From assembly GCA_025062295.1 (NCBI GenBank), contig JANXAJ010000010.1, positions 1-54,351 of the forward strand: a stretch of DNA of 54,351 bases, written 5' to 3'. The stretch comes from Bacteroidia bacterium (GTDB lineage: Bacteria; Bacteroidota; Bacteroidia; SpSt-205). A program made the position numbers and the translations under genes. Below, piece by piece: positions 53-53,596 of this stretch. Numbering within the stretch: position 1 is the stretch's first letter; each line of letters opens with the position of its first letter. A model generated the notes under the pieces. The model was not told the DNA's origin, searched no databases, and saw only the letters and a list, made by a program, of their open reading frames with translations.

Positions 53-1543
53 TCAGCTGCTCCTGCGATGAAAGACAACGAGCTTGTCTTTATCCCATAT
101 TTTTTCCCAAGAAGGTGACTTTTCTAAGGAGTCTATAAACTGAATAAGTTTTGCACTTCCTACAGGCCATGGGTTAGGGTCTTCTCGCAAAAGAGCGATG
201 TACTCTACCTTGCTCAAACCTGCAGGGAAGTGATAATACTCCCAGCGCGGGGGAATGTGAGAGATTAACCGAGATACAGCACTTACAGAGGCTTGAGGAG
301 GGATAAGCCTGAGGCCTTCATGAATTTTTGAGTAGTTGTAGGGAGAGTGGTAGTGCTGAGGGGCATACCATCGGTGGCGTTCAGCTTCATACCATTTGGA
401 GACACGCTTCTCCAGTAGGGAAAATCCCATAATGTGAGCCCCTAATGCTCCTGCTGCCAAGAGAGTCCAACATCTCCAATTGCCTTTCCAGCGTTGGGCT
501 GCCCATAGCACAGCAATCGGTAAAATAACCGCAAATTCTACGCTATAATGGTAAAGGGTTCCCCATATCATATAATCAGAAGCCAGCAGTTTGTACATAT
601 ATACGGGTAGGAGGAGAAGGAGGAAGAGAGGCTGGAAAACAAATGCCCATCCACCTGACCATAGTACGCTCCAGTGCAGTTCTGACTTGATACCGACCCC
701 GTCGGGGTAGGGAGATTCCCACAGAAGGGTCCATACAAGCTGTGGACGCAGAAGAAGGGTTCTTACAATGCGTTTGAAAGAGAAGGGGGGTACTTGACCA
801 GACTGAAGGGCAGCTATAGGGTCGTCTGCCCCCAGATAGCTATATAAATTCATTCGACTGTGAGCAGGGATATCTGGTTTGTACAGAAAGTAGGCTATGG
901 CGAACCATAGGGCTGCTATGCCCCCTGCCACTAAGAGAAATCTTCGCTCCTCGGGAGCTTTATATACAAATACAAGGATGAGAGCTATCCATACCCCCCA
1001 CAAAGCAGCTGATTCTTTTGAGCCAATGAAGAAAAGCCAAGTGAGAAAGGCTATCCACCATTTTCTCTGCTCTATGCCGTAAAGTACAAAGGGAATCCAA
1101 ATGAGGACCTCATGCCAATCAAAAGCTAATAAACTAACAAGGCCCCACATTCCGAAGTAATGTATCATACTCAGGAGCCCTGCTCGCCAGTCTTTTAGCC
1201 GATGCTTAGCGTAGAGAAATAAGCCTAGTCCGCCAAGCCCTACCAGCAACCATTGATAAACTAAAGCTCCCCATACCCCTCCTATCCAATAAAAAGGTAA
1301 AGCCAAGTGATAGGTCGGGGCTGCATGGGGTACAACTACCCATCCTTCCTCGCCGTAGAAGTTGCTTGAACTTAGATATTTCGGGACAAAATATCCCTTT
1401 GAATGGTTTTCTAAAACTTGCGAAATGTATGCGAGATCTCCAAAGGTTCTAAAGTTATAGTGGTTAGGAAAAGTTACGAGTCCCATGATTGACATGAAAA
1501 AGAGCCAGACTACGAGGACAAGGATGATAGCTCTGCGGGGCAT
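53..1543 (-). CDS. DUF2079-family polytopic membrane protein
   Basis: About 496 residues with roughly ten hydrophobic segments. The N-terminal motif around GDLAYISQVLENHSKG and the later FDWHEV motif fit the DUF2079 family, which resembles the membrane half of GT-C glycosyltransferases; the substrate is unknown. The reading frame stays open up to 1708, but I start at the ATG at 1543. That ATG is immediately followed by a hydrophobic segment (MPRRAIILVLVVWLFF) and is preceded by TACCTTTG-ccta, a perfect Bacteroidota promoter box. Longer starts would place that promoter inside the gene. It diverges from the prenyl synthase gene across only 47 bases. The family call is from recognition of motifs and topology, and function is unproven. 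Confidence 0.75.
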   Translation of the reverse strand: MPRRAIILVLVVWLFFMSIMGLVTFPNHYNFRTFGDLAYISQVLENHSKGYFVPKYLSSSNFYGEEGWVVVPHAAPTYHLALPFYWIGGVWGALVYQWLLVGLGGLGLFLYAKHRLKDWRAGLLSMIHYFGMWGLVSLLAFDWHEVLIWIPFVLYGIEQRKWWIAFLTWLFFIGSKESAALWGVWIALILVFVYKAPEERRFLLVAGGIAALWFAIAYFLYKPDIPAHSRMNLYSYLGADDPIAALQSGQVPPFSFKRIVRTLLLRPQLVWTLLWESPYPDGVGIKSELHWSVLWSGGWAFVFQPLFLLLLLPVYMYKLLASDYMIWGTLYHYSVEFAVILPIAVLWAAQRWKGNWRCWTLLAAGALGAHIMGFSLLEKRVSKWYEAERHRWYAPQHYHSPYNYSKIHEGLRLIPPQASVSAVSRLISHIPPRWEYYHFPAGLSKVEYIALLREDPNPWPVGSAKLIQFIDSLEKSPSWEKIWDKDKLVVFHRRSS

Positions 1544-1547
1544 TAGG

Positions 1548-1555
1548 CAAAGGTA
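1548..1555 (-). promoter_or_regulatory. TAnnTTTG promoter box of the DUF2079 gene
   Basis: TACCTTTG on the minus strand ends 4 bases before the ATG at 1543. With a Bacteroidota-type -7 box this close, transcription should begin at or next to the start codon. Confidence 0.65.
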
Positions 1556-1580
1556 GAGGAAAGAGCGGTGAAAGATTTTA

Positions 1581-1588
1581 CTTTCGTA
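1581..1588 (+). promoter_or_regulatory. Near-consensus -7 box of the prenyl synthase gene
   Basis: The near-match TACTTTCG (one mismatch to TAnnTTTG) lies a few bases before the GTG at 1591, mirroring the box of the divergent gene. Confidence 0.35.
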
Positions 1589-1590
1589 AA

Positions 1591-2535
1591 GTGTGGGATT
1601 TTGGCAGATATGAAAAGGAGCTCCTAAGTCTGCGTTGGACAGCCTTGGGTCAGTGGGAGCAGTGGATGTCTTATGCGCTCTCAGGTGGGGGAAAGCGACT
1701 GCGCCCATTTTTAGCCTGGCTTAGCTATACTTTCTATGCTGGTGGAAGAGCAAAGTGGGAAGAGGTGCTCCCACTTCTTCATGCTATAGAACTATTTCAC
1801 ACCTTTACGCTCATACATGATGATATAATGGATAAATCTCAGATCAGACGCGGACTTCCTACTCTTTATCGGCAAACAAATGAAAATGTAGCTATACTTA
1901 TTGGTGATGCCTTTCTAATCAGCGCCTACCAGCAATTAACTTCCCTGCCGCCTGAAGTGTGTAAGCAGATTGGAGAGGTGCTTTGTCATGCTGCCCTTCG
2001 AGTGTGTTATGGTCAGCTTTTGGATTTAGAGATGAGTGAGCGTCCAACGGCTGAGGCTTCCATGGAGATCTACCTAAAGATGATTACAGAGAAAACTGGA
2101 GCGCTTCTTGGAGCGGCTCTTGAAGCAGGGGGTATCTTAGCGGGAGTTCCCCTCTCAGAGGCTCAGAAACTCAGGGAAGTGGGTGAGGGACTGGGGCGAT
2201 TCTTCCAACTCCAAGATGATTATCTGGATGCTTTTGGAGAGGCAACCGGAAAGGTAAAGGGAGGGGACATTGCAGAAGGTAAAAAGACCTTTCTCTGGCT
2301 CTGGTTGTGGGAGAGAGCTTCACCCTCGGAGCGTCAAGTTCTTGATAATCTTTCTCTTTCTCCTGAGGAGAGACGGATGTTTGGTCTCAAGCTTTATGAA
2401 AAATATGAGCTCCGACCACGAGCTGAGGCTTACTTGAGTGAGGTTAGAGAGAGTTTGGAAGAGCGCATTCAAGCTGTGGCTTGTAAAGAGGCATTAGCTG
2501 AGGTTCTGAGACAGATAAGCGAGCGCTTGAGATGA
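1591..2535 (+). CDS. Polyprenyl (farnesyl/geranylgeranyl-type) diphosphate synthase
   Basis: A 314-residue trans-isoprenyl diphosphate synthase that condenses isopentenyl diphosphate with an allylic diphosphate to make quinone, carotenoid or undecaprenyl precursors. Visible motifs are GGGKRLRP (32-39), the first aspartate-rich motif DDIMD (77-81) followed by RRG (86-88), and the second motif DDYLD (209-213). There is no two-residue insertion in the first motif, and the fifth residue before it is Phe. By analogy with type I/III enzymes this favours a shorter C15-C20 product over octaprenyl; that is inference. The start is GTG, and no ATG lies nearby in frame before the conserved region. A near-consensus promoter box sits just upstream. 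Confidence 0.9.
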   Translation: MWDFGRYEKELLSLRWTALGQWEQWMSYALSGGGKRLRPFLAWLSYTFYAGGRAKWEEVLPLLHAIELFHTFTLIHDDIMDKSQIRRGLPTLYRQTNENVAILIGDAFLISAYQQLTSLPPEVCKQIGEVLCHAALRVCYGQLLDLEMSERPTAEASMEIYLKMITEKTGALLGAALEAGGILAGVPLSEAQKLREVGEGLGRFFQLQDDYLDAFGEATGKVKGGDIAEGKKTFLWLWLWERASPSERQVLDNLSLSPEERRMFGLKLYEKYELRPRAEAYLSEVRESLEERIQAVACKEALAEVLRQISERLR

Positions 2536-53096: not shown

Positions 53097-53105
53097 CCAA
53101 GAGTA

Positions 53106-53113
53106 CAAAAGTA
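53106..53113 (-). promoter_or_regulatory. TAnnTTTG promoter box of HMG-CoA lyase
   Basis: TACTTTTG on the minus strand, 9 bases before the ATG at 53096. Confidence 0.55.
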
Positions 53114-53150
53114 CTTCCTTCTTGAGAGAGTAGCTGAACCTTGAGTGAGG

Positions 53151-53158
53151 TAATTTTG
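53151..53158 (+). promoter_or_regulatory. TAnnTTTG promoter box of the bacilliredoxin gene
   Basis: TAATTTTG, 15 bases before the ATG at 53174. This is the longest spacing in the window, so a short leader is expected here. Confidence 0.5.
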
Positions 53159-53173
53159 TTTTAGTGCAATAGT

Positions 53174-53596
53174 ATGTATCCCTCCTACATTGTAGAGCCG
53201 ATTCGGGAAGAGACGATACAAATAGGCCTTACGGAGCTGCGCACGCCTGAAGAGGTAGATACAGTTCTTGCGGATCTCAAGCGAACGGGTGAAACAGCTC
53301 TCTTTCTGATTAATTCAGTCTGTGGGTGCTCAGCTGCTTCAGCTAGGCCTGCTGTGGCAATAGCCTTGCGGCACCATAAGCATCCTCATCGGTTTTACAG
53401 CGTTTTCGCTGGGGTGGATAAAGAGGCGACAGCCCGACTGCGTCAATACTTGGCTCCGCATCCTCCCTCCTCTCCTAGCATGGCACTCTGGAAAGGGGAG
53501 AGACTCTTGCACTTCATCCCTCGTCATGAGATAGAAGGATATACGCCGCAGCATATTGCTGCTACCCTTATCTCGCTTTTTGACGAATACTGCTAA
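53174..53596 (+). CDS. Bacilliredoxin (BrxA/BrxB family)
   Basis: A 140-residue thioredoxin-fold protein with the CGC active site (Cys50, Cys52) in INSVCGCSAASARPAV. The family member removes bacillithiol from proteins in Firmicutes and is also found in Bacteroidota. The sequence length and the C-terminal EIEGYTPQHIAATLISLFDEYC match. A second gene starts immediately after its stop. Redox repair is likely. Confidence 0.93.
   Translation: MYPSYIVEPIREETIQIGLTELRTPEEVDTVLADLKRTGETALFLINSVCGCSAASARPAVAIALRHHKHPHRFYSVFAGVDKEATARLRQYLAPHPPSSPSMALWKGERLLHFIPRHEIEGYTPQHIAATLISLFDEYC

Follow-up and report, generated by a model that had tools for sequence, protein, structure and literature searches.

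Promoter boxes set against start codons suggest widespread leaderless or near-leaderless transcription in a lineage of Bacteroidia

Background

Bacteroidota are a model for translation without Shine-Dalgarno (SD) pairing, and the species that have been studied mostly have leadered mRNAs favouring upstream adenines. Contig JANXAJ010000010.1 of the Bacteroidia bacterium assembly GCA_025062295.1, the 54,351 nucleotides of which are referred to here as the window, raises the question of where mRNAs begin in such bacteria: the sequence TAnnTTTG ends only a few bases before the start codons of genes on both strands. Is this box a promoter, with mRNAs that begin on or beside the start codon? Is it an RNA element within a longer leader? 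Or is its position the result of chance and of the way in which starts were chosen?

The TAnnTTTG box is common to the window and to the -7 element of sigma-ABfr promoters described in Bacteroides fragilis, Flavobacterium johnsoniae, Flavobacterium psychrophilum and Bacteroides thetaiotaomicron. In F. johnsoniae, transcription starts 4–5 nt after the TAnnTTTG of probable promoters, and 87% of the transcripts with a probable promoter have a leader of more than 10 nt (PMC6847099; papers cited by PMC number are represented here by excerpts of their text). Leaderless transcripts make up 5.5% in F. psychrophilum (PMC9723704), and about 3.7% of the 5' untranslated regions of B. thetaiotaomicron are shorter than 10 nt (PMC7366714). 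A survey of 2011 reported leaderless genes in 1/37 Bacteroidetes/Chlorobi genomes (2.4%); its authors thought it unlikely that large shares had escaped detection, while conceding that only Pribnow-like boxes had been sought (PMC3160421). A study of 2017, which cites earlier work, suggested on the strength of base composition that leaderless mRNAs may be numerous in Bacteroidetes (PMC5397173). Here the position of TAnnTTTG relative to start codons is followed from the window to its genome and to related genomes.

Boxes at start codons in the window and the genome

A first-pass annotation of the window had listed starts preceded by an exact box at 3–9 bases, most often at 4, and had called this far above chance. 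An exact TAnnTTTG does end 3–9 bases before the codon at 17/17 of these starts, 15 of them ATG and two GTG (20677 and 30668). The commonest spacing is 4 (six boxes), and the others are 9 (three), 5, 7 and 8 (two each) and 3 and 6 (one each). The window contains 44 copies of TAnnTTTG, compared with 26.1 +/- 4.9 in 100 shuffles, none of which reached 44. Of these copies 17/44 sit 3–9 bases before any of 52 starts (those of the annotation plus those called), and 20,000 random placements gave at most 3, so the second claim is also borne out.

Could the association be due to chance, or be an artefact of the freedom to choose starts that the annotation and our gene caller both had? The caller uses codon usage and start-codon type only and ignores upstream sequence. 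It nevertheless finds a box at 15/45 genes of the window, as opposed to 0 or 1/45 for each of ten rearranged or altered control motifs. Control motifs with equal freedom reach about 1%, and a profile made without gene calls, given below, peaks identically. Chance and start choice are rejected by the control motifs, and we regard them as extremely improbable.

The window is a contig of a draft genome (G000) of 2.05 Mb in 74 contigs, 99% complete. Boxes were counted in 1.53 Mb of this genome, comprising 1185 genes; the counts exclude genes that had no neighbour within their stretch or ran off the end of a contig. An exact box lies 3–9 nt upstream of 166/378 divergent genes (43.9%), of 55/215 co-directional genes with a gap of more than 50 nt, and of 80/592 (13.5%) with a gap of 50 nt or less; the ten control motifs average 1.0%, 1.2% and 0.8%, respectively. 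The 166 divergent spacings are 4 in 75 genes, 5 in 32, 3 in nine and 6–9 in 50. With one mismatch permitted, 69% of 194 divergent genes have a box, as compared with 14% for permuted motifs. The genome-wide scan that had been suggested as a check agrees with the window. The same peak is seen without gene calls. Around 308 boxes in 434 kb, 30 ATGs of frames of at least 100 codons stand at a spacing of 4 bases, 18 at 5 and none at 0–2, with control motifs giving 0–4 per position. A limit of 80 codons, applied to 791 kb, gives 58 at 4 and 32 at 5, and 2, 0 and 3 at 0, 1 and 2.

Two sets of sequences served for comparison. The first is a draw of 40 genomes including G000, of which 10 are of the genus, one is of the family (G011) and one is of the order but another family (G012, GC content 0.39); G006 is a relative in the genus. 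The second comes from a SecA search in which 80 loci were kept, every title naming a Bacteroidota group, at 48–55% identity. Of these, 79/80 form the set referred to below as the named loci (L001 was dropped; all 80 were used in one comparison), with 977 genes in 1.50 Mb. The named loci, G012 and a further genome, G051, were called less completely than G000, which widens their intergenic gaps. In the midpoint-rooted SecA tree the window pairs with the metagenome-assembled genome Bacteroidetes bacterium J049, separate from the other 79 rows, on a branch 1.94 long and with unsure placement. A near relative of the M1 peptidase of the window bears the label Bacteroidia bacterium KatS3mg026, which may denote a hot-spring metagenome.

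The box as a promoter

Transfer RNAs (tRNAs) are untranslated, transfer-messenger RNA (tmRNA) aside, so a box before their genes cannot be a translation signal there. Leaving out tRNAs near a stretch end or no more than 80 nt downstream of another tRNA, 22/26 first tRNA/tmRNA genes of G000 have an exact box within 60 nt, 4–14 bases from the mature 5' end (control 0.9). Likewise, 7/7 tRNAs in G006 have an exact box, at 4–15, and 8/10 tRNA/tmRNA genes in the named loci have one at 11–37. Where a tRNA box lies at 4–5 bases, transcription must have begun by the fifth or sixth base past the box, and tRNA and tmRNA 5' leaders of about 0–10 nt are predicted for G000. Loss of RNase P as the cause of short tRNA leaders is ruled out by the presence of RNase P RNA (L239, 7936–8237).

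These genes bear on the proposal that TAnnTTTG acts in the RNA, as an element of the translation initiation region (a standby or S1 site, for example) within a longer leader. Such an element would be placed relative to start codons, as the box is, and could also occur at closely spaced internal genes, as the box does at 13.5% of them. It would not be found before tRNA and tmRNA genes, and the box is moreover the known -7 element of the phylum (PMC6847099, PMC9723704, PMC7366714) and more frequent at divergent genes (87/194) than at internal ones (39/303; p=2.6e-15). We give an RNA element very little probability. TAnnTTTG is very likely the promoter (-7 element) of G000, as judged from its placement.

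The sequence around the box avoids G at its free positions (-9/-10) and is A-rich at -18. These are features of F. johnsoniae promoters, with which the lack of a visible -33 element is also shared (PMC6847099). At -33, where a TTTG/TTG element was sought, 99 G000 and 59 G006 promoters with spacing 4–5 contain no information; this is not decisive, because -33 is also little evident in F. johnsoniae. A single protein in the genome has a sigma region 1.2. It is 292 amino acids long, matches solved primary sigma factors over residues 21–291 and, judged from its length and the range of the match, is too short for N-terminal region 1.1.

Where transcription would begin

If the offset of 4–5 nt measured in F. 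johnsoniae applies, a spacing of 4 or 5, found at 107/166 divergent box genes, puts the start site on the A or G of ATG or GTG. At spacings of 6–9 the leaders would measure about 5 nt at most; for the nine genes at spacing 3, transcription would have to begin one base sooner. TTG is the start codon of 1/221 box genes (divergent plus gap >50) vs 19/180 genes at 4-nt overlaps (p=1.7e-6). This near-exclusion fits a leaderless start, because with TTG the first transcribed base would be a pyrimidine. Among genes with spacing 4, a pyrimidine stands immediately upstream of the codon in 66% (G000) and 75% (G006).

Are the codons beside the boxes real starts? Were transcription to begin 7 nt or more after the box, the mRNA would lack any ATG at spacing 4; in that case the box-adjacent ATGs would be untranslated and the true starts would lie downstream. 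In rplS and rpsU, however, the protein is conserved from the ATG across the genus, which argues that these box-adjacent codons are real starts, and the tRNA genes at spacing 4–5 require initiation by the fifth or sixth base after the box. Downstream starts seem to us no more probable than an RNA element.

A sub-case that overlaps leaderless initiation is that of ultra-short leaders of 1–9 nt, with a start point that drifts between genes. It would account for spacings of 6–9 (50/166 divergent box genes), for the 10/18 orthologue pairs in which spacing differs, and for predicted tRNA leaders that are short too, mostly not zero. The mode at 4–5, on the other hand, is the offset measured in F. johnsoniae, and TTG starts are nearly absent though a leader would permit them; as an account of these genes in general, ultra-short leaders are possible but rather doubtful.

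It might also be that start-adjacent boxes are used and yet conditional upstream promoters, read by other sigma factors, make most of the message in growing cells, with leaders. Alternative sigma factors exist in F. psychrophilum (PMC9723704), and over half of the divergent genes here are without an exact near box. There is little room for such promoters, the median divergent gap being 82 nt in G000, 75 in G006 and 45 in G011 vs 204–368 in the less completely called named loci. Genes with a near box have few further TAnnTTTG boxes 10–150 nt upstream (8 vs 4.1 for controls), and we consider this arrangement improbable. The genes without a near box have 50 boxes in this interval vs 9.9 for controls, which means that a leadered minority is present.

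Several points weigh against leaderless transcription as the rule. No exact box at 3–9 nt is present at 56% of divergent genes, and 31% of 194 are without even a one-mismatch box, so other promoters or real leaders exist; rpoD has no exact box within 60 nt. The box at 13.5% of closely spaced co-directional genes requires promoters within operons, or operons that were called wrongly. At spacing 5 the preference for a pyrimidine ahead of the codon is not seen (54–55%), and the spacing is equal in only 8/18 G000-G006 pairs with a box in both. A at -3 is rare in box genes, 24% in G000 and 14% in G006 vs 46% in the named loci, which have lower GC; it is likewise low in internal no-box genes (30% and 27%), so this is a trait of the genome and not specific to box genes. 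The starts come from a home-made, crude caller that sought them 150 nt up and 60 nt down, with controls handled alike. Finally, the start-point offset is assumed equal to that of F. johnsoniae, and leaderlessness is to this extent a prediction.

With these points taken into account, we predict with considerable confidence that the 166/378 divergent genes with TAnnTTTG 3–9 bases upstream are leaderless or near-leaderless, with a 5' end at the codon or within about 5 bases of it. The promoter is so close that the transcription start site would fall on or near the start codon, given an offset taken from F. johnsoniae and bounded by the tRNA genes. The widespread leaderless or near-leaderless transcription proposed at the outset is in this sense supported as a prediction by the enrichment, the conservation in the genus, the tRNA boxes, the F. 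johnsoniae offset, the rarity of TTG and the small number of second boxes.

Distribution in the genus, the family and the phylum

The pattern TAnnTTTG-N4-ATG occurs 161 times in G000, vs 8 times when read backwards, and a spacer of 23 bases between box and ATG is found 21 times. The ratio of spacing 4 to spacing 23 is 5.3–11.7 in the eight genus genomes of a draw of 247 genomes of the class. Ratios in this draw were read by eye, completely for the genus and by scanning for the remainder, and in the other 239 genomes they appear mostly to be 1–3, the highest noticed being those of G141 (87:17) and G157 (80:18). Outside the class, no genome equally dense in start-adjacent boxes was seen by eye in a draw of 198 genomes of the phylum.

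Divergent genes have a box in 48/90 cases in G006 (400 kb) and in 12/26 in G011 (115 kb), and the pattern, as read from these genomes, holds across the genus and the family. In the 79 named loci, grouped by GC class, the counts are 6/56, 1/64, 4/62 and 5/58; a small start-adjacent class exists there as well, and the upstream boxes peak at 20–40 nt. That peak in the relatives suggests that the lineage most likely lost its leaders. The order relative G012 (L164–L173) has a start-adjacent box at 7/33 genes, called with borrowed training; its available sequence is too short to show where in the lineage the trait arose.

Individual genes show the same constancy. The box of rplS has a spacing of exactly 4 in 8/8 genus genomes in which rplS was found (nine were searched, G008 having no match; G009 and G010 were not drawn), and the remaining intergenic sequence diverges around the fixed box. 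Among five outgroups, G013 has an exact box at 24 and the other four have none within 160 nt. For 84 reciprocal best pairs of G000 and G006, the box is present in both members in 18, in one in 12 and in neither in 54, and 13/18 of the pairs with a box in both align from residue 1 in both.

Raised counts of start-adjacent boxes were also observed in G051, G090 and G123 (family f41), G028 and G223 (f18), G141 (f61), G157 (f65) and G276 (Crocinitomicaceae, L025). A box is present at 15/46 divergent genes in G051 and at 7/26 in G028. Leader loss may, to judge from these genomes, have occurred more than once in Bacteroidia.

Translation machinery and operons

Box genes are without SD sites: SD-like motifs are present in 3% vs 5% for the control in G000 (109 genes) and in 0% vs 2% in G006 (64 genes). 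The first-pass annotation had placed clear SD sites mainly inside operons. The two sites that it gave, 10968 and 14274, are present, but they do not reflect a general rule, as SD-like motifs are not enriched in operon-internal genes (13% vs 13% control in 115 genes of G000; 0% vs 14% in 44 genes of G006). General SD use inside operons is accordingly rejected. No SD was seen before rpsR in the window.

It had also been suggested that the 16S rRNA tail, S1 or bS21 might be altered, and this is not obviously so. The 16S tail of G006 is GGATTACCTCCTTTCTGG, with the anti-SD (CCUCC) intact; no 16S tail was found in G000, so the tail is judged from G006 only. A search with RF00177 matched 0/11 genus genomes, with a control that itself matched only 9/14 known genomes and a masked 16S body explaining the miss in G006. 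S1 is present in 11/11 genus genomes and IF3 in 9/11, the two misses being 81 and 83% complete. An altered 16S tail and loss of S1 or of IF3 are on this evidence rejected as causes. The bS21 protein aligns best to 7jil, which we take to be the F. johnsoniae ribosome, and keeps Tyr at position 54.

The gene for bS21, rpsU (L153 near 12589 and L208–L218), has an exact box 4–7 nt before the ATG in 10/11 genus-plus-family genomes and a one-mismatch box in the eleventh, G004; G010 had no rpsU match. By eye, no SD was seen before rpsU in these 11 genomes. In G012, rpsU has no exact box within 60 nt. Four of five class outgroups have the box at 23–32 nt, and G016 has an SD in between. This differs from the situation in many Bacteroidia, in which a strong SD of rpsU serves autoregulation and the anti-SD is sequestered on the ribosome (PMC9976891). 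The likeness to those ribosomes lies in the CCUCC tail (G006), Tyr54 of bS21 and the lack of general SD use, as judged from sequence.

How would the genes within operons be reached? A 4-nt overlap with the preceding stop is found in 27.5% of 512 internal no-box genes vs 0–9% in the named loci, which fits reinitiation. For G000 and G006 the share is 27%, roughly three times or more that of the named loci.

What can be read in the DNA is the box with its spacing, the fact that the genus conserves it, and its occurrence ahead of tRNA genes; the mechanism we propose starts from these. The 292-residue primary sigma factor would recognise the box in the manner of sigma-ABfr elsewhere in the Bacteroidota. 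With the F. johnsoniae offset of 4–5 nt, RNA polymerase would initiate on the first base (A or G) of the ATG or GTG, and the ribosome would then begin at the codon that forms the 5' end, with no SD involved. To reach downstream genes in operons, ribosomes would rely mainly on termination-reinitiation. We also lean, by a little, towards a broader proposal: that throughout one family of Bacteroidia the 5' leader has almost disappeared, with mRNA and tRNA promoters at the first base of the product, initiation on a bare 5' AUG or GUG, an anti-SD still tucked away, reinitiation at 4-nt overlaps, and loss, together with the leader, of the bS21 feedback loop that in many relatives depends on the SD of rpsU.

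Genes behind the boxes of the window

On the minus strand, TACCTTTG precedes an ATG at spacing 4 at the gene for a DUF2079 membrane protein (53–1543; box at 1543..1555), at rplS (bL19; 11332..11344) and at an M1 peptidase gene (25525..25537), at spacing 8 at secA (20531..20547) and at spacing 9 at a gene without a Pfam match (52217..52234) downstream of the 53096 gene. From the box-adjacent start of secA, 16/80 homologous loci align from residue 1 and the rest from residue 3–21. The other minus-strand boxes, all before ATG, are TAAATTTG at spacing 8 before rpsF (bS6; 6544..6560), TATTTTTG at spacing 5 before pheS (36841..36854), TAAGTTTG at spacing 9 before atpF (ATP synthase b; 42560..42577), which is followed by the delta, alpha and gamma subunit genes, TACATTTG at spacing 4 before an AMP-binding enzyme gene (45854..45866) and TACTTTTG at spacing 9 before an HMGL-like gene (53096..53113).

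On the plus strand, a MotA/ExbB-family gene divergent from rplS has TATATTTG at spacing 7 (ATG; 11400..11417). An M23/LysM gene has TACTTTTG at spacing 3 (GTG; 20666..20679), and an NlpC/P60 gene and a SurA-like/PPIC gene have TAAGTTTG, at spacing 4 (ATG; 22145..22159) and spacing 6 (GTG; 30654..30670). TATCTTTG is found at spacing 5 before a radical-SAM gene that is lipoyl-synthase-like (ATG; 27397..27412) and at spacing 4 before a gene without a Pfam match (ATG; 45955..45969) that is divergent from the 45854 gene. Another gene without a Pfam match has TACCTTTG at spacing 7 (ATG; 37914..37931). Finally, TAATTTTG stands at spacing 15 before the ATG of a PF06491 (Disulph_isomer) gene (53151..53176); this gene, starting at 53174 and so within the range covered by the first-pass annotation, is possibly a short-leader case outside the 3–9 class.

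The boxes had been assigned to 15 or more transcription units. A divergent neighbour is faced by 10/17, and not all 17 are clear unit starts. A co-directional gene lies upstream at 6544, 25525, 37929, 42560 and 52217, with gaps of 27, 95, 56, 70 and 24 from the called starts. Two of the 17 have no called context, the gene at 22157 not having been called and 27410 lying outside the search range of the caller.

Among the other contents of the window, rplS is followed after 8 nt by a co-directional gene for a TPR-CHAT protein (1349 amino acids; 6915–10964, minus strand), which presumably has a caspase-like fold. An ATP-dependent DNA ligase is encoded at 3734–5353 (plus strand), with N-terminal, catalytic and C-terminal domains. 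An Rfam scan of the window gave no match.

Conclusions

Leaderless transcription and TAnnTTTG are each known; it is their pervasive fusion in a lineage of Bacteroidia that is new. In the sigma-ABfr Bacteroidota most transcripts are leadered, according to the excerpts cited above, whereas here the box abuts the start codon. The TA-led leaderless genes of Actinobacteria and Deinococcus-Thermus are alike in having a -10-like element about 10 bp before the start at many genes, and the promoter element here is a different one (PMC3160421). A search of the open-licence literature by title and abstract, which makes for a weak negative, found no report of pervasive leaderless transcription in a Bacteroidota lineage.

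The finding runs counter to the published expectation of few leaderless genes in the phylum (PMC3160421). Gene finders that model the starts of this group by AT-rich ribosome sites (PMC9581028) may misplace starts in these genomes, for the annotation of which TAnnTTTG at 3–9 nt is a strong marker of the start codon. A lineage seemingly without leaders would be a natural second solution to initiation with the same kind of ribosome, and it makes testable whether sequestration of the anti-SD opens the way to leaderless initiation.

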